In this document: positions 3,372 to 17,135 of the stretch, in pieces
Layout: each line of letters opens with the position of its first letter
How positions within the stretch are numbered: position 1 is the stretch's first letter
Source: a virus
IMG/VR virus record: IMGVR_UViG_3300007229_000119
Coordinates: 1-21,200 of that record
Strand: one strand, 5' to 3'
Length of the DNA: 21,200 nucleotides
Notes under the pieces: generated by a model
What the model was told of the DNA's origin: nothing
What the model saw: the letters and a program-made list of their open reading frames with translations, nothing else
The model's database searches: none
Position numbers and translations under genes: made by a program

Positions 3372-3489
3372 AGGTCGGGAGTCTGATTTTCAATCATACC
3401 AAAAGGACGTTGGCATTGCACAAGGATTAGAAGATGCTTGTGCAATAATCGACGAAACATTAAATCAAATTGATGAAGAGGATGCATAA
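3292..3489 (+). CDS. Small coiled-coil phage protein, 65 aa, function unknown
   Basis: Begins at ATG 3292 after AAGG about 7 nt upstream. The sequence is almost wholly helical: TIELLKAIKRNLREKRSAIA, then a short break with DFQSYQKDVGIAQGLEDA and an acidic end (IDETLNQIDEEDA). This charged two-helix hairpin recurs in many phages upstream of head genes, always as a hypothetical protein as far as I recall. It sits 1 nt before the co-chaperonin gene and is probably cotranslated with it. A role as a small assembly or virion-associated helper is only inferred from position. Confidence 0.75.
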   Translation: MTTIELLKAIKRNLREKRSAIAEKMIEGRESDFQSYQKDVGIAQGLEDACAIIDETLNQIDEEDA

Positions 3490-3490
3490 C

Positions 3491-3895
3491 ATGTCTCATC
3501 CGCATGCAATATACACCGATGAAGAAAATAAAGCGACCATCGGTTCTCACCAACTTCCAATACCAATGAATTGGAAAGTCCTAGTCCAGCCCAATGAAAC
3601 CAAAAAAGAGACCAAAGGTGGAATAATCCTGCCTTCAATCTCAAGAGACAATGAGAGTTATCTCACTGCTCATGGAACAATTGCAGCATTGGGCGAACTT
3701 GCTTATCATGATAGAGATACTGGCCAGCCTTGGAAGATGTCAACACGTCCACAGGTCGGCAATCGTATCACCTATGGAAAATACGCAGGTCAAAAAATTG
3801 TAGTTAATGGTGTCAGCTTCCTTATATTGAATGATGATGAGATTACATCCATTCTTCCTGAGGGTGCTGAGATTACTGGCTACTTACCAACTTGA
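3491..3895 (+). CDS. GroES-like co-chaperonin (Cpn10 family), 134 aa
   Basis: A co-chaperonin caps the host GroEL ring so that a bound protein can fold inside. Here residues 21-35 (QLPIPMNWKVLVQPN) match the start of the Cpn10 barrel. ETKKETKGGIILPS at 36-49 is the mobile loop, with the GGIIL contact motif that docks on the GroEL apical domain. HGTIAALGE at 61-69 and QVGNRITYGKYAGQKIVVNGVSFLILNDDEI at 88-118 follow the order of GroES strands. The protein is longer than bacterial GroES (about 97 aa) because of an N-terminal extension and an insert of about 17 residues after ALGE. The start at ATG 3491 follows the previous stop by one base. It lies directly upstream of scaffold and capsid genes, as expected for a capsid-folding helper like T4 gp31. 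(Residues quoted in two parts: QVGNRITYGKYAG and QKIVVNGVSFLILN.). Confidence 0.85.
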   Translation: MSHPHAIYTDEENKATIGSHQLPIPMNWKVLVQPNETKKETKGGIILPSISRDNESYLTAHGTIAALGELAYHDRDTGQPWKMSTRPQVGNRITYGKYAGQKIVVNGVSFLILNDDEITSILPEGAEITGYLPT

Positions 3896-7478: not shown

Positions 7479-7892
7479 ATGGCTGATATAACAACCACAA
7501 CCAAAATATCTGAAAACACTCAAGAGGTCGTTTTTGCTTTCCAATATCAATATGTTGATGGTGGAAATGAAAGTGCTGTCAGCAAAATTGATGTCTCTGG
7601 GCTTTTGACCAATGCAGCAGGGGAAACCTGCACAGGCATAAGGATAATTGAGTGTTGGTGGGTTATCAATGCAATGACTGTTGAGGTTCTTGCAGACGCA
7701 GACGTTGACATAATTGTCCTTCACCTTGACGAAGGCCAGTCTGGATATCAAGACTTTTCTAGATTTGGCGGATTGCCAACAAGCTCATCATATGGTGCCA
7801 ATGGAACAGGTGATATAAAATTCACAACAACTGGTGCTGGAGCTGCGGGGGATTCATATCAAATTGTTATCAGAGCGAGCAAGCAGTATTAA
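7479..7892 (+). CDS. Virion protein, 137 aa, probable beta-sandwich
   Basis: ATG 7479 follows TTAGGAG (7466-7472). The sequence starts with EVVFAFQYQYVDGGNESAVS, followed by KIDVSGL, and includes a Trp/Cys strand (GIRIIECWWVINAMTVEVLA). It then has IIVLHLDEGQSGYQDFSRFG and ends with a strand IVIRASKQY. I recall the 'VFAFQY.YVDGG.ESAVSKI' opening from marine phage structural genes. It is likely a small head- or neck-associated protein, given that an adaptor gene follows with a one-base overlap. No enzyme motif is visible. It could be a head-decoration, neck or head-closure component. Confidence 0.7.
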   Translation: MADITTTTKISENTQEVVFAFQYQYVDGGNESAVSKIDVSGLLTNAAGETCTGIRIIECWWVINAMTVEVLADADVDIIVLHLDEGQSGYQDFSRFGGLPTSSSYGANGTGDIKFTTTGAGAAGDSYQIVIRASKQY

Positions 7893-8590
7893 TGGCAACT
7901 TCAGGAACAGTAGTTTTCAGGCCAAGTGTTGAAGAGATAATAGCAGAAGCATTTGAGCGTTGCGGTATTGATCCCCAAACAAGGACAGGGGATCATGCCG
8001 TTTCTGCGCGCAGAAGCCTTAATCTTTTATTTTCTGAATGGGCAAACAGAGGAATAAATTATTGGGCACTCAGCTCTGGCACTCTTAATCTTAGCTCAGG
8101 GACAGCTGTTTACAATTTGCCAGCAGGAGTTATAGATCTGATGGACGTTGTTATAAACAACTCTGCTAGTTCATCTCAGTCAGATACCATAGTTAATAAA
8201 ATAACAATATCTGAATATAACCAGATACCCAATAAAACATCCTCAGGCAGACCAAGCCAATACATGATTGATAAAGGTCTTCAGTCAGGATCAAATAACA
8301 TATCTAAAATTTATGTTTGGCAAGTCCCTAATATAAGCACATATGTCCTTCAGTATTGGTCAATGAATCAGCTTGAAGATATAACAGCTTCAAATCAAGA
8401 CACAGACATTCCTTATACATGGAGTGAATGTATTTGTGCAGGCTTGGCGAGCAAGCTCTCCGTCAAATACTCGACAGATCGGTTTCAACTTTTAAATGAG
8501 CTTTATGAAAGAGCATTTAATTTCGCAGCAGCATCAGATAATGATGGCGTAAGCTTGAGGGTTCAACCCACAGCGTTGAATTTGGTTTAA
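7892..8590 (+). CDS. Head-to-tail adaptor, P22 gp4-like (copy 1), 232 aa
   Basis: Adaptors bind below the portal ring and join it to the tail. The order of elements fits the P22 gp4-type tail accessory family. A helical N-terminal half comes first (SVEEIIAEAFERCGID, then HAVSARRSLNLLFSEWANRG). The TAVYNLPAGVIDLMDVVI strand segment at about 71-88 is next, followed by GRPSQYMID and KIYVWQVPN beta segments. A second helical part (SECICAGLASKLSVKYS, then LLNELYERAF) closes it. Starts with a one-base overlap to the previous gene (TAATG) and ends with the same overlap to the next. No membrane helix. The family assignment is from pattern recognition, and the gene at 9562 shares the plan. Confidence 0.65.
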   Translation: MATSGTVVFRPSVEEIIAEAFERCGIDPQTRTGDHAVSARRSLNLLFSEWANRGINYWALSSGTLNLSSGTAVYNLPAGVIDLMDVVINNSASSSQSDTIVNKITISEYNQIPNKTSSGRPSQYMIDKGLQSGSNNISKIYVWQVPNISTYVLQYWSMNQLEDITASNQDTDIPYTWSECICAGLASKLSVKYSTDRFQLLNELYERAFNFAAASDNDGVSLRVQPTALNLV

Positions 8591-9561
8591 TGGCGAAATA
8601 TGCATCAGGAAAAAAATCATCAGCGATAAGTGACAGGTCTGGCTTTAAAATAAAGTACACAGACCTTAAAACTACTTGGGATGGGTTGCGTGTTGAAAAA
8701 GAAGAGTGGGAGCCGAAGCACCCTCAGTTAACCCCAGCCAAAAATGTTTTTGATGCAACAGCGTTGAGAAACCCAAGGCCTGATGGTGACCCTGATAATG
8801 TAAAGTTTTTTGTAGGTTTTAATTACGACCCTTTCCTTGATGTTAGGGAGAGGCCACCCATTGGAATAGCAGGACTTGGTCAAATTGGCAGGGTTGAAGC
8901 TAGGTTTATAATTGGTGCTTCAGCAACAGGGGTTGCAGGAACAAGTGCTTTAGGAACTTTTGGCTTAACTATAAATCAGACACTATCTCAGATAGGGCTT
9001 CAGGCACTTGGTTTTGTAGCTGGGTCAGCAACTGGCACTACAACTTTCGAAATAACTGTTGTAAATCCTGGCTCAGGAAATGTTTATGCAATAGACGCCA
9101 GCAACCAAGCAACACTTACACTTTACGAAGGAAACACTTATTACTTTGATCAATCAGATAGCAGCAACAGCGGTCATCCGTTAAGGTTCAGCACTACTTC
9201 AGACGGAACTCATGCTAGCGGATCAGAGTATACAACAGGTGTAACAACAAGCGGAACTCCAGGAGAATCAGACGCATATACTCAAATTGTTGTTGCTTCA
9301 GGAGCCCCGACGCTATATTACTATTGTACAAATCACAGCGGTATGGGTGGAACATCAAACACACCATCGCCAATAACACAAGTTCCAACAGCTAAACAAG
9401 TTAATGCTGGCGTCGCAGGAACTGGTGCCATTGGCGATCAGGCTGCTCAAGGAAGCCCATCAAATGCTGGCGTCGCAGGAACAGGCGGCGTAGGAACTGT
9501 TTCGGTAGTTCTAAGTGGCTGGGGTCTTGGTGGCTGGGGAAGTGGAACATGGGGTAATTAA
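8590..9561 (+). CDS. Virion protein with cupredoxin-like domain and WG-rich tail, 323 aa
   Basis: ATG 8590 overlaps the previous stop. Residues 1-85 are basic then mixed (FVGFNYDPFLDVRERPP). Residues about 90-130 hold degenerate 'VAGTxxxGtfG'-type repeats. Residues about 148-258 form a cupredoxin-like domain, with strands LTLYEGNTYYFD and GHPLRFS. The His196, Cys246, His249 and Met252 in GHP and YYYCTNHSGMGG match the four ligands of a type-1 copper site (C-x2-H-x2-M here). The end repeats NAGVAGTG and finishes in SGWGLGGWGSGTWG. I recall similar motifs in marine cyanophage virion proteins. It could be a neck or tail fibre-type structure. Copper binding is not shown by sequence alone. Confidence 0.65.
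   Translation: MAKYASGKKSSAISDRSGFKIKYTDLKTTWDGLRVEKEEWEPKHPQLTPAKNVFDATALRNPRPDGDPDNVKFFVGFNYDPFLDVRERPPIGIAGLGQIGRVEARFIIGASATGVAGTSALGTFGLTINQTLSQIGLQALGFVAGSATGTTTFEITVVNPGSGNVYAIDASNQATLTLYEGNTYYFDQSDSSNSGHPLRFSTTSDGTHASGSEYTTGVTTSGTPGESDAYTQIVVASGAPTLYYYCTNHSGMGGTSNTPSPITQVPTAKQVNAGVAGTGAIGDQAAQGSPSNAGVAGTGGVGTVSVVLSGWGLGGWGSGTWGN
9403..9482 (+). repeat. Direct repeat encoding NAGVAGT
   Basis: AATGCTGGCGTCGCAGGAAC occurs identically at 9403-9422 and 9463-9482, in the same frame, encoding NAGVAGT(G). The 60-nt spacing is a multiple of three, so copies add or remove a protein unit without shifting frame. Confidence 0.8.
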
Positions 9562-10185
9562 ATGAACTATACAACTTTGGTATCTAATATTAAAAATTTC
9601 ATGGAAGATGATTCTTCTGAGTTTGATTCGTCTATTAATGAAATAATAGCTCAAGCTGAAGAAATGATATTTCAAAGACTTCCTAGCTTGCCTTGTTTCA
9701 GATCATCAGCAACAGGAACTTTGGTTGTTGGAACTGCTGATTATGTAATACCATCAGCAAGAATGATAAGACAACTCTCTGTAACAGCTTCAAGCTCTGT
9801 TTCTTTTCTTGATCACAGGGTAGATTCTTATATTCGTGACTATTGGCCAAATGCAACACTTACAGGAACACCAGAGTTTTACAGCACAAAGTTGGCAGGG
9901 ACTGCTGGTATAACTGTAACTTTGGCACCAACACCATCTGCTACTTTAAGTTATCAAGCTGACATAGTAGCCCCAGAAACAGGATTATCTACAGGTAATG
10001 CAAACAGTTGGATCGGCGATAACGCTGAAGCTGTTTTGCTTGCTGCAGCACTTTATGAAAGTTCTGCTTTCCTTAAAGCTCAAGAAACGCTAAGTTTATA
10101 CAAGGCTCAGTTTGATGAAGCTGTTGCATTGTTCCAGCAGGAGATGGGCAGAAACTACACAGCCGAATATAATGGAGGCATTTAA
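9562..10185 (+). CDS. Adaptor-like virion protein (copy 2), 207 aa
   Basis: ATG 9562 directly abuts the preceding stop TAA. The product has an acidic helical start (NIKNFMEDDSSEFDSSINEI, then IIAQAEEMIFQRLPSLPCF) and a beta part around 55-135 (TADYVIPSARMIRQLSVTA, then EFYSTKLAG and ITVTLAPTPSATLSYQADIV). A helical end follows (NAEAVLLAAALYESSAFLK, then FDEAVALFQQEMGRN). This helix-beta-helix plan resembles tailed-phage adaptor proteins and the gene at 7892. Two adaptor-like genes with three kilobases between their ends may form successive rings of the neck, as in other short-tailed phages, or one may be a tail-tube-like component. No membrane helix or enzyme motif. Confidence 0.6.
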   Translation: MNYTTLVSNIKNFMEDDSSEFDSSINEIIAQAEEMIFQRLPSLPCFRSSATGTLVVGTADYVIPSARMIRQLSVTASSSVSFLDHRVDSYIRDYWPNATLTGTPEFYSTKLAGTAGITVTLAPTPSATLSYQADIVAPETGLSTGNANSWIGDNAEAVLLAAALYESSAFLKAQETLSLYKAQFDEAVALFQQEMGRNYTAEYNGGI

Positions 10186-14785: not shown

Positions 14786-15222
14786 ATATTGATAAGTTGA
14801 GGGAAGAAATTGAAGTTGATGAGGGATGCAAGTATGAAATCTATCTTGATCACCTCGGCTTGCCTACCTTTGGCATTGGGCATCTTGTTTTGGATATTGA
14901 TCCTGAGTATGGAGAAGAGGTCGGAACACCTGTATCAGAGGATAGGGTGTCAGCTTGTTTTGATAGAGACGTACACACAGTGCTTTCCGAATGTGAAAGG
15001 TTGTACGAAGACTTTTCCAGCCTCCCTGAAGATGTGCAAAGAATTATTGCAAACATGATGTTTAACATGGGATATCCTAGGTTAAGCAAATTTAAAGGAA
15101 TGAAGGCTGGTGTTGATGCTCGTGATTGGAACCAAGCTGCAGATGAAATGGTTGACTCTGTTTGGTATCGTCAGGTAACTAATAGAGCAGACAGATTAGT
15201 TGAAAGAATGAGGAGGATTTAA
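14782..15222 (+). CDS. T4-type lysozyme (endolysin), glycoside hydrolase 24, 146 aa
   Basis: Cleaves the peptidoglycan glycan bond. The family's catalytic triad is plain: Glu14 in DEGCK, Asp23 in IYLDHLG and Thr29 in LPTFGIGH, at the same spacing as T4 lysozyme Glu11, Asp20 and Thr26. IIANMMFNMGYPRLSKFKGM at about 90-109 matches the helix 'INMVFQMG...F' of T4, and SVWYRQVTNRADRLVERMR matches 'SRWYNQTPNRAKRVI'. The length is 146 compared with 164 in T4. There is no signal peptide, so it depends on the holin encoded just upstream (ATGA overlap). AGGAGG in its last codons (15211-15216) is the ribosome-binding site of the next gene. Confidence 0.9.
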   Translation: MNIDKLREEIEVDEGCKYEIYLDHLGLPTFGIGHLVLDIDPEYGEEVGTPVSEDRVSACFDRDVHTVLSECERLYEDFSSLPEDVQRIIANMMFNMGYPRLSKFKGMKAGVDARDWNQAADEMVDSVWYRQVTNRADRLVERMRRI

Positions 15223-17135
15223 TGTCACTAAAACTTCTTAAATTCAAGTCAGGAATAGTCAAAGACATAACTGAATATGCAGCATCTAAAAATGGTCCAT
15301 TTTTCACAGATGGCAACTTAGTAAGATTCACAAATGGCTATGCTGAAAAAATAGGTGGCTGGGTTAAAGAATTATATTATGGCCTAGATGCAGCAGGGAA
15401 CCCAGATACAGATACAGCTGTTAAAATTCAAGGAACTCCCAAAGCTGTTTTAAGTTGGAGAGCTAACACTGATGGTTCAGACAGGATTGCACTAGGAACT
15501 TCAAGTCACCTTTACGTTTTTAAACAAAATGTTGCCTACGATGTAACACCTTTAAGAAAAACAACCTCAAACCTTACCAATCCTTTGGCTACAACAGACG
15601 GAAGCACAACTATAACATGCACAGATAACAGCCATGGTGCCCATCTTGGTGATTATGTTTTAATAGAATCTGCTGCGGCAACAGGTGGCATAGCAGCAAA
15701 TACACTAAACAGAAAAGAAGGCTATGAAATATCTGCAGTCACAACAAATACATTTACAATAACTGTCCCTGATGCCGCTACTAGCACTGTTGGTTCTGGA
15801 GGTGGGACAACAATTGATTTTTTGTACCTTATAGGCAACGTTGCAGGTTTGGGAGTTGCTAGCTCAATTCCTGGACTTGGCTGGGGAGCAGGAACTTGGG
15901 GTGAATCAACTTGGGGAACAGCCAGAGACTCTTCAACAATTGGAATTGGGCCATCTTTAGATTCATCTCAGTGGAATCTTAATTTGTGGGGTGAAGATTT
16001 ATTAGTCAACATCCGTAATGGTGCTGTATATTATTGGGAGCTTTCTGATGGTGAAACATCAAGAGCTGTTTTGGCATCAACTGAATCAGGCGCATCAAAC
16101 ATACCAACTGCTACAAGAGTCACCAACATATCTTTCCCAGACAGGCATTTTATAATCGGTGGTGCTAATCCACTTGGTAGCTCAGTCATGGATCCTATGC
16201 TTATAAGATTCTCAGATCAAGAAGACTTTGTTAACTTTACTCCAACATCAACTAACACAGCAGGTGATCAAAGGCTTGAGGTTGGAACAAAGATAATACA
16301 AATTTTGCCAACAAAAGATGAGACATTCATTCAAACAGATGAAGCAGCATATGCAATGACATTTGTTGGCCCACCTTTTACATTCTCATTTAGGTTGTTG
16401 GCTGTTAATTGTGGTGCTGTCGCAATTAATGGTTCAGCAAATGTTGATGGAAGTATATATTGGATTGGCAAAAGTAACTTTTTTGCTTATAATGGTTCTG
16501 TTGCAGAGTTGCCTTGCTCAGTTCAATATTATGTATTTGACAGATTGCAACAAGAGTTTATAGATAAAACGTACGCAGGTCACAACAAAAAATTTAATGA
16601 AGTAACTTGGTTTTACGTCAGCACAGACAATCCCGCTGGAACTAACAGTCCAGAGCCAGACAGCTATGTAACATTTAATTACGCAGATGGCTCTTGGACA
16701 ATAGGTTCCCTCGATAGAAATGTTTGGAATGATTCAATGGGAAGCAGACTTGTTCCTTTTGCTTTTGACTCAACAGGAGAACTTTACAATCACGAAACGG
16801 GAACTTCTGATGATGGATCAGCGATGTCTTGTTTTATAGAAACGAGTGATTTGGAAATGTCTGAATCAGGCAACAGACTATTCTTAATTGATAAAGTTGT
16901 CCCAGATGCAAAGATGGGAGCTGACACAAGTCTTTTTGTTGAGCTTAAAACTCGAAAATATCCTCAAGGATCAGAAACAACCAAGGGTCCATTTACTATT
17001 ACTCAAAATACAGCTAAGGTATCAACAAGAGCAAAAGGTCGTCAAGTCTCAGTTAAGTTCTCAAGCACAGGTCAAACCGATGATTGGCAACTTGGTGACT
17101 TCAGGATAAATACAATAGAAGACGGAACAAGATGA
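15222..17135 (+). CDS. Tail/DNA-stabilisation protein, P22 gp10-like candidate, 637 aa
   Basis: ATG 15222 overlaps the lysozyme stop, with AGGAGG at 15211-15216. The N-terminus reads LLKFKSGIVKDITEYAASKN, then FFTDGNLVRFTNGYAEKIGG and W. This opening ('GI..D.T.Y......F.DGN..RF..G..EKIGGW') is what I recall from marine short-tailed phage tail proteins of the P22 gp10/packaged-DNA-stabilisation type. The middle has a GWGAGTWGESTWG repeat (about 222-234) shared in style with the gene at 8590. From about 240 on, bladed beta segments repeat (ISFPDRHFIIGG, IQTDEAAYAMTF, IYWIGKSNFFAY, EVTWFYVS), suggesting a beta-propeller. It would bind below the adaptors as a tail hub. The length is greater than P22 gp10 (472 aa). 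Confidence 0.55.
   Translation: MSLKLLKFKSGIVKDITEYAASKNGPFFTDGNLVRFTNGYAEKIGGWVKELYYGLDAAGNPDTDTAVKIQGTPKAVLSWRANTDGSDRIALGTSSHLYVFKQNVAYDVTPLRKTTSNLTNPLATTDGSTTITCTDNSHGAHLGDYVLIESAAATGGIAANTLNRKEGYEISAVTTNTFTITVPDAATSTVGSGGGTTIDFLYLIGNVAGLGVASSIPGLGWGAGTWGESTWGTARDSSTIGIGPSLDSSQWNLNLWGEDLLVNIRNGAVYYWELSDGETSRAVLASTESGASNIPTATRVTNISFPDRHFIIGGANPLGSSVMDPMLIRFSDQEDFVNFTPTSTNTAGDQRLEVGTKIIQILPTKDETFIQTDEAAYAMTFVGPPFTFSFRLLAVNCGAVAINGSANVDGSIYWIGKSNFFAYNGSVAELPCSVQYYVFDRLQQEFIDKTYAGHNKKFNEVTWFYVSTDNPAGTNSPEPDSYVTFNYADGSWTIGSLDRNVWNDSMGSRLVPFAFDSTGELYNHETGTSDDGSAMSCFIETSDLEMSESGNRLFLIDKVVPDAKMGADTSLFVELKTRKYPQGSETTKGPFTITQNTAKVSTRAKGRQVSVKFSSTGQTDDWQLGDFRINTIEDGTR

Follow-up and report, generated by a model that had tools for sequence, protein, structure and literature searches.

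The locus and its genes

The stretch of DNA analysed, hereafter the window, is a virus record of 21,200 bases. At 8590-9561 on its plus strand there is an intact open reading frame that starts with ATG and specifies 323 amino acids with no interruption. It lies between two genes for SU10-type tail adaptors, the upstream one overlapping it by 1 base such that the final base of the adaptor gene is the A of the ATG. Further downstream come an S74-chaperone fibre gene and then a long gene matching the virion structural family phrog_3287. Gene order and family resemblance together suggest that the 323-residue product of this uncultured virus is a virion protein. The features relevant here are as follows.

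7892..8590, plus strand: upstream gene for an SU10-type tail adaptor (PF24175, E 6e-10)
8590..9561 (stop included), plus strand: gene for the domain-bearing virion-type protein, syntenic with gp53 of the Roseobacter phages CRP-901 and CRP-902
8590..8865, plus strand: conserved N-terminal anchor, residues 1-92 (phrog_28581 match at residues 1-65; common to 80 viral loci and CRP-901/902)
8929..8955, plus strand: short repeat of the GVAGTxAxG type ahead of the domain (alignment A5; the number of repeats differs among relatives)
9046..9366, plus strand: predicted cupredoxin-fold domain, residues 153-259 (AF2 pLDDT 94.9, structural and profile matches)
9175..9177, plus strand: codon of His196, putative first type-1 ligand, within 'GHPLRF' (aligned to the 'PHN' His of PF00127 proteins; conservation)
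9325..9327, plus strand: codon of Cys246, putative thiolate ligand, the sole Cys (composition and conservation)
9334..9336, plus strand: codon of His249, putative second His ligand (composition and conservation)
9343..9345, plus strand: codon of Met252, putative axial ligand (composition and conservation)
9409..9435, plus strand: repeat GVAGTGAIG, 3' of the domain (sequence and A5)
9469..9495, plus strand: repeat GVAGTGGVG, 3' of the domain (sequence and A5)
9517..9558, plus strand: C-terminal GWGLGGWGSGTWGN motif (Trp316, Trp321, Gly312, Gly317 and Gly322 invariant in A5)
9562..10185, plus strand: downstream gene for a second SU10-type adaptor (PF24175, E 5e-19)

In the 323-residue product Cys occurs once, at 246, Met at 252 besides the start residue, and His at 44, 196, 208 and 249. 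Apart from the start Met, all Cys and Met residues are thus among the four putative ligands, and Cys246, being the sole Cys, is without a disulphide partner.

Two other parts of the window may be mentioned. The long virion-family protein encoded at 15222-17135 (phrog_3287) has in common with the 8590-9561 product both similarity to phrog_28581 and a GWG/TWG-type motif. The ORF at 3470-3895, judged by position only, sits where CRP-901/902 and phage 023Pt_psg01 have the co-chaperonin GroES, the point at which the same structural gene order begins.

Architecture and the domain as an optional module

Residues 160-258 match tail-fibre and virion families among the PHROG profiles. Alignment of 15 relatives reveals an N-terminal anchor that is kept, GxxGTGAIG-type repeats that are variable in number and a C-terminal GWGxxxWGxGTWG that is again kept. 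The domain itself comes and goes: among 80 viral loci picked by the anchor alone, the anchor-bearing ORF has it in 17, which is 12 of 63 distinct proteins. The gp53 of CRP-901 and CRP-902 occupies the same gene position and has the anchor, the repeats and the Trp/Gly tail, but is without the cupredoxin domain, for which a profile search of the whole record gave 0 matches in each phage. At three loci (L044, L051 and L207) the domain is doubled in tandem, and in phage 023Pt_psg01 it is fused to the N-terminus of an adaptor-like protein. On these sequence comparisons the domain is a movable accessory module inserted between the N-terminal anchor and the Trp/Gly tail, and its optional presence is more in keeping with an accessory on display than with a structural part that the virion must have.

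At two loci (L151:3956-5758 and L152:1514-3316) an insert that looks by eye like LamG sits at the place of the copper-type domain. The anchor also has a curious feature of its own in that its first part (8590-8790, residues 1-65) resembles a zinc ribbon without its cysteines; among 104 distinct anchors CxxCG...CxxC is kept in 8 and CDRCA...CxxC in 1 (loci L058, L049, L090, L126), with SDRSG...VEKEE in that of the window.

The predicted fold

The sequence-only reading had placed the four residues in a plastocyanin-like beta context, and the structural work agrees with it. An AF2 model of the domain, built from the 54 rows of alignment A4 (of 55 candidate rows L128, with unknown residues in its sequence, was left out), is all-beta with pLDDT 94.9 and pTM 0.87. 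The best VIA match of this model is the N-terminal domain of Hyphomicrobium NirK (2dv6_A, Z 9.8, 99 residues aligned at 2.5 A), other matches including rusticyanin (Z 8.8), nitrosocyanin (7.0) and plastocyanin (6.5); Z values of 7 to 8 often turn up for models that match nothing clearly, and the top rows exceed that and are of the same kind. All 50 VIA matches listed are cupredoxin-type, counting entries for factor VIII, ceruloplasmin and EfeO that we take to be so, and no antibody is among them. Foldseek likewise gave Hyphomicrobium NirK and rusticyanin as its best solved matches. Profile-profile comparison with seven PF00127 Copper-bind proteins yielded a probability of 88.6, and of 96.3 after three marine copies were added, the first His being aligned on the His of 'PHN' and the Cys and second His on the Cys and His of the PF00127 proteins. 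In the modelled secondary structure His196 directly precedes a strand, Cys246 ends one and Met252 stands ahead of the next, which is presumably the usual type-1 topology. The domain is thus predicted to have the Greek-key beta-sandwich of cupredoxins.

Sequence libraries are less forthcoming. PF00127 Copper-bind in Pfam matched neither the whole protein nor any of 16 domain members, the NCBIfam amicyanin model TIGR02657 matched 2 of the 16 below cut-off (best E 0.051; the window's domain not among them), and nothing in Pfam or NCBIfam was above cut-off for the domain. Searches of solved structures by sequence were uninformative, the single protein giving one chance match and two profiles giving mostly antibody chains and a few copper proteins (NirK E 2.9; pseudoazurin E 0.26). 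A full-length AF2 model, with mean pLDDT 45.2, was poor outside the domain and discarded there, so that display geometry draws no support from it. In BFVD, giant-virus (Pithovirus, Marseillevirus) 'beta-sandwich proteins' (A0A481Z7Q7, A0A481Z6J5, A0A481YVH3) have TM of about 0.7 to the domain model at 20-22% identity.

Could the sandwich instead be an immunoglobulin V-set domain in which the ligands are coincidental? GenBank carries a PF07686 note on P-HM2 gp106, and the antibody heavy chains in the solved-structure searches, brought in via a YYC stretch, point the same way. However, their E-values were 0.15 or worse, the VIA matches listed were free of antibodies, and a single Cys allows no V-set disulphide; nor did PF07686 match the window's protein or the 16 domain members above cut-off. 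We regard this reading as extremely improbable.

The four putative ligands and their conservation

His196, Cys246, His249 and Met252 are present as the sequence-only reading had numbered them, and composition and conservation single them out. Their order, H...C-x2-H-x2-M, is that of type-1 (blue) copper sites. When 143 distinct related domains are compared over 102 columns, those of the four putative ligands rank highest in conservation, with Cys in 140/140, the second His in 140/140, Met in 140/140 and the first His in 142/143. This reflects selection and not the near-identity of recent descent, since both synonymous codons are common at the His and Cys columns: CAC 68, CAT 74 and AAT 1 for His196, TGC 54 and TGT 86 for Cys246, and CAT 72 and CAC 68 for His249. 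When 16 divergent rows with identity down to 27% are taken, the invariant residues are exactly H, Y, C, H and M.

The broader count gave 155 domain matches in 209 sources, 152 of them with all four ligands and the other 3 partial alignments, a count that is partly biased in that some search patterns contained the Cys-His stretch, as is so for many of the 143 domains. One of the partial alignments was ended by a contig end, and two, from cyanophages, are truly ligand-less according to the later survey described below. A motif-selected count of 84/84 was set aside as biased, the patterns having included the Cys-His stretch. As a possible fifth ligand His208 was discarded, since its conservation does not extend beyond the surroundings of the window's subfamily and many ligand-bearing copies are without it. 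A full type-1 set in a cupredoxin fold, as originally claimed, is well supported by the model, the structural matches and conservation, the fold itself being predicted.

The immediate surroundings of the site are distinctive. The residue following the first His is Pro in 138/142 where plastocyanins have Asn, which makes for a different second sphere. In plastocyanin the Cys sulphur takes part in a hydrogen bond with the backbone; Pro would remove this bond, from which a raised reduction potential is predicted.

Ligand-bearing and ligand-less copies

A second survey, in which the profile was run on 27 whole phage records, found 69 places in 25 records; two adjoining ones were joined (L327), which gives 68 copies. 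The places were not chosen by motif, but the records had been reached via tblastn matches and the profile, A4, came from ligand-bearing rows, so that ligand-less copies are if anything under-counted. The trio C-x2-H-x2/3-Met or Gln is present in 38 of the 68 and absent from 30. Its axial residue is Met in 37 and Gln in 1, the exception being a copy (L293) in P-RSM6 at 87571-88221. Axial Gln is known from stellacyanin-type sites.

The distant first His accompanies all 38 trio copies vs 8 of the 30 trio-less ones (Fisher p 1.5e-11, kinship ignored). A paired test corrected for kinship was underpowered, supported branches giving it only 2 independent pairs (median p 0.5). The tree, made with ligand columns excluded from the window and the 55 of 68 copies with at least 25 bits (56 rows), has the trio changing state at least 6 times, only 2 of these changes being forced by supported branches; the 13 copies below 25 bits are possibly doubtful relatives. 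As far as the sequences go, this pattern is consistent with ligands being gained or lost as a set, and with one shared metal site.

The sequence-only reading had held that frequent substitution in homologues would count against a metal site. Within the window's subfamily the ligands are unsubstituted (152 of 155, the remainder partial), whereas 30 of 68 copies in the cyanophage family at large have lost the trio. It had also held that most structural uses of the fold would not need all four ligands, and here the ligand-less copies bear it out, above all P-SS2 ORF080. This protein, at 112 residues approximately the domain alone, is without the first His, the Cys and the second His, and was present in purified particles in the structural proteome determined by mass spectrometry, with an average of 9 peptides (PMC2784084). 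It supports the place of the domain family in virions. Metal is therefore not obligatory for the fold or its incorporation, and since the fold works without ligands in P-SS2 ORF080, their retention elsewhere needs its own reason. A literature search for virion proteomes found no entry for a ligand-bearing copy.

The same copies are the natural footing for supposing a plain structural beta-sandwich, in which the four residues pack at the loop end for structural purposes and no metal is held in the virion: nearly half of the surveyed copies manage without the trio and one of those is a virion component. Yet a fold that dispenses with these residues has them, where they are retained, as its top-conserved columns and as a set, and we consider the plain sandwich unlikely, though deserving of some weight.

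Distribution and the setting of the domain

A tblastn search with the domain matched 368 of 50,697 phage records, the names of which begin with Synechococcus, Cyanophage, Prochlorococcus, Pelagibacter, Methylophilales, 'Marine', 'uncultured' or 'phage'. The copies are labelled 'tail fiber', 'structural' or 'hypothetical'. Cultured phages with the full ligand set include the Pelagibacter phages HTVC028P and EXVC032P and the cyanophage S-TIM61. Related domains also occur at 40 loci in genome contigs. Typed by eye, some of these are clearly phage, some are T7-like tail fibres on contigs of Pelagibacter, and others belong to marine bacterial proteins of very large size that appear to be exported. 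At four of the genome-contig loci (L099, L109, L103 and L128) a domain with the full ligand set lies in a marine bacterial protein that is large or RTX-like and apparently exported.

Type-1 sites usually carry electrons, and it may be asked whether the gene is metabolic, encoding a plastocyanin-like electron carrier and not a virion part, the more so as cyanophages also have a separate petE plastocyanin gene, according to PMC3037559 and PMC10436341. Against this the domain is fused to tail or adaptor proteins in many phages and lies within the tail gene cluster, and CRP-901/902 do without it. An electron carrier is highly improbable.

A displayed, metal-stabilised attachment module?

The overall best explanation, and one that we judge rather probable, is that the domain is a displayed, metal-stabilised tail-attachment module with a type-1-like copper site. 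Residues 153-259 would form a cupredoxin with a complete type-1-like site and a short Cys-His-Met loop of amicyanin length. The N-terminal anchor would fix this tail-neck protein near the adaptor ring, and the short Gly-rich repeats would space the module outward, where it is probably displayed on the virion. The site would most likely bind one copper ion, which would lock the domain at its exposed end, the one with the Cys-His-Met loop. Cupredoxins generally meet their partners with this face, hence the proposed role in host-surface contact, which the metal-stabilised loop end may shape or strengthen.

Copper is not the only candidate. Cys-His-His-Met sites are able to bind other soft metals, and the site might hold zinc, silver or a mixture, or might have copper only by chance from seawater. 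The H...C-x2-H-x2-M spacing and the position of the loop match those of type-1 copper proteins, however, and an alternative or adventitious metal seems quite unlikely.

A bolder extension of the copper-bearing attachment module is that the interchangeable tail modules of marine tailed phages are true type-1 copper centres, that evolution switches one domain all-or-none between copper-bearing and copper-less forms, and that copper from the host envelope or seawater arms host recognition, for instance if the module docks on a protein with which the host handles copper or if a redox change takes place at the cell surface. It is speculative, and we hold it possible but doubtful.

Free virions are usually regarded as metal-poor protein and DNA. 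With the domain present in many ocean viruses, marine virus particles may hold copper. If it does hold copper, abundant ocean phages bear blue-copper sites outside the cell, phage attachment is tied to trace-metal chemistry, there is an added virus-borne pool of copper, and the hundreds of records now labelled only in structural or hypothetical terms would acquire a function that can be tested. Nature supplies a ready comparison, in that one domain exists both with and without the ligands.

Likeness to known systems

Neither the fold nor the ligand set is new. A literature search, mostly without subscription journals, found no description of marine phages employing them as an optional tail module and no paper on cupredoxins in phage virions. 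Several cyanophage tail and baseplate domains (PHROG 30742, 693, 708, 27200) belong to the same domain family as that of the window, and in the records examined these copies have no cupredoxin annotation. The gp9-type cyanophage copies ('baseplate wedge tail fiber connector') carry the full ligand set, while many other cyanophage copies are without ligands.

Among solved structures the closest is the N-terminal cupredoxin domain of the three-domain NirK of Hyphomicrobium denitrificans (2dv6, 6tfo), but at 18% identity, and there the domain is part of an enzyme whereas the phage one is in a virion-type protein. With amicyanin, plastocyanin and PF00127 proteins the phage domain has in common the order H...C-x2-H...M, and its Cys-to-Met loop of seven residues is the same length as the CTPHPFM loop in the title of 2fta, which we take to be the amicyanin loop; unlike amicyanin or plastocyanin it is inserted in a phage protein and is not a free electron carrier. 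The tip of T4 gp37 and phage spikes have iron-binding His sites. There too metal resides in a phage protein for adhesion or piercing, with a different fold, a different metal and different ligands.
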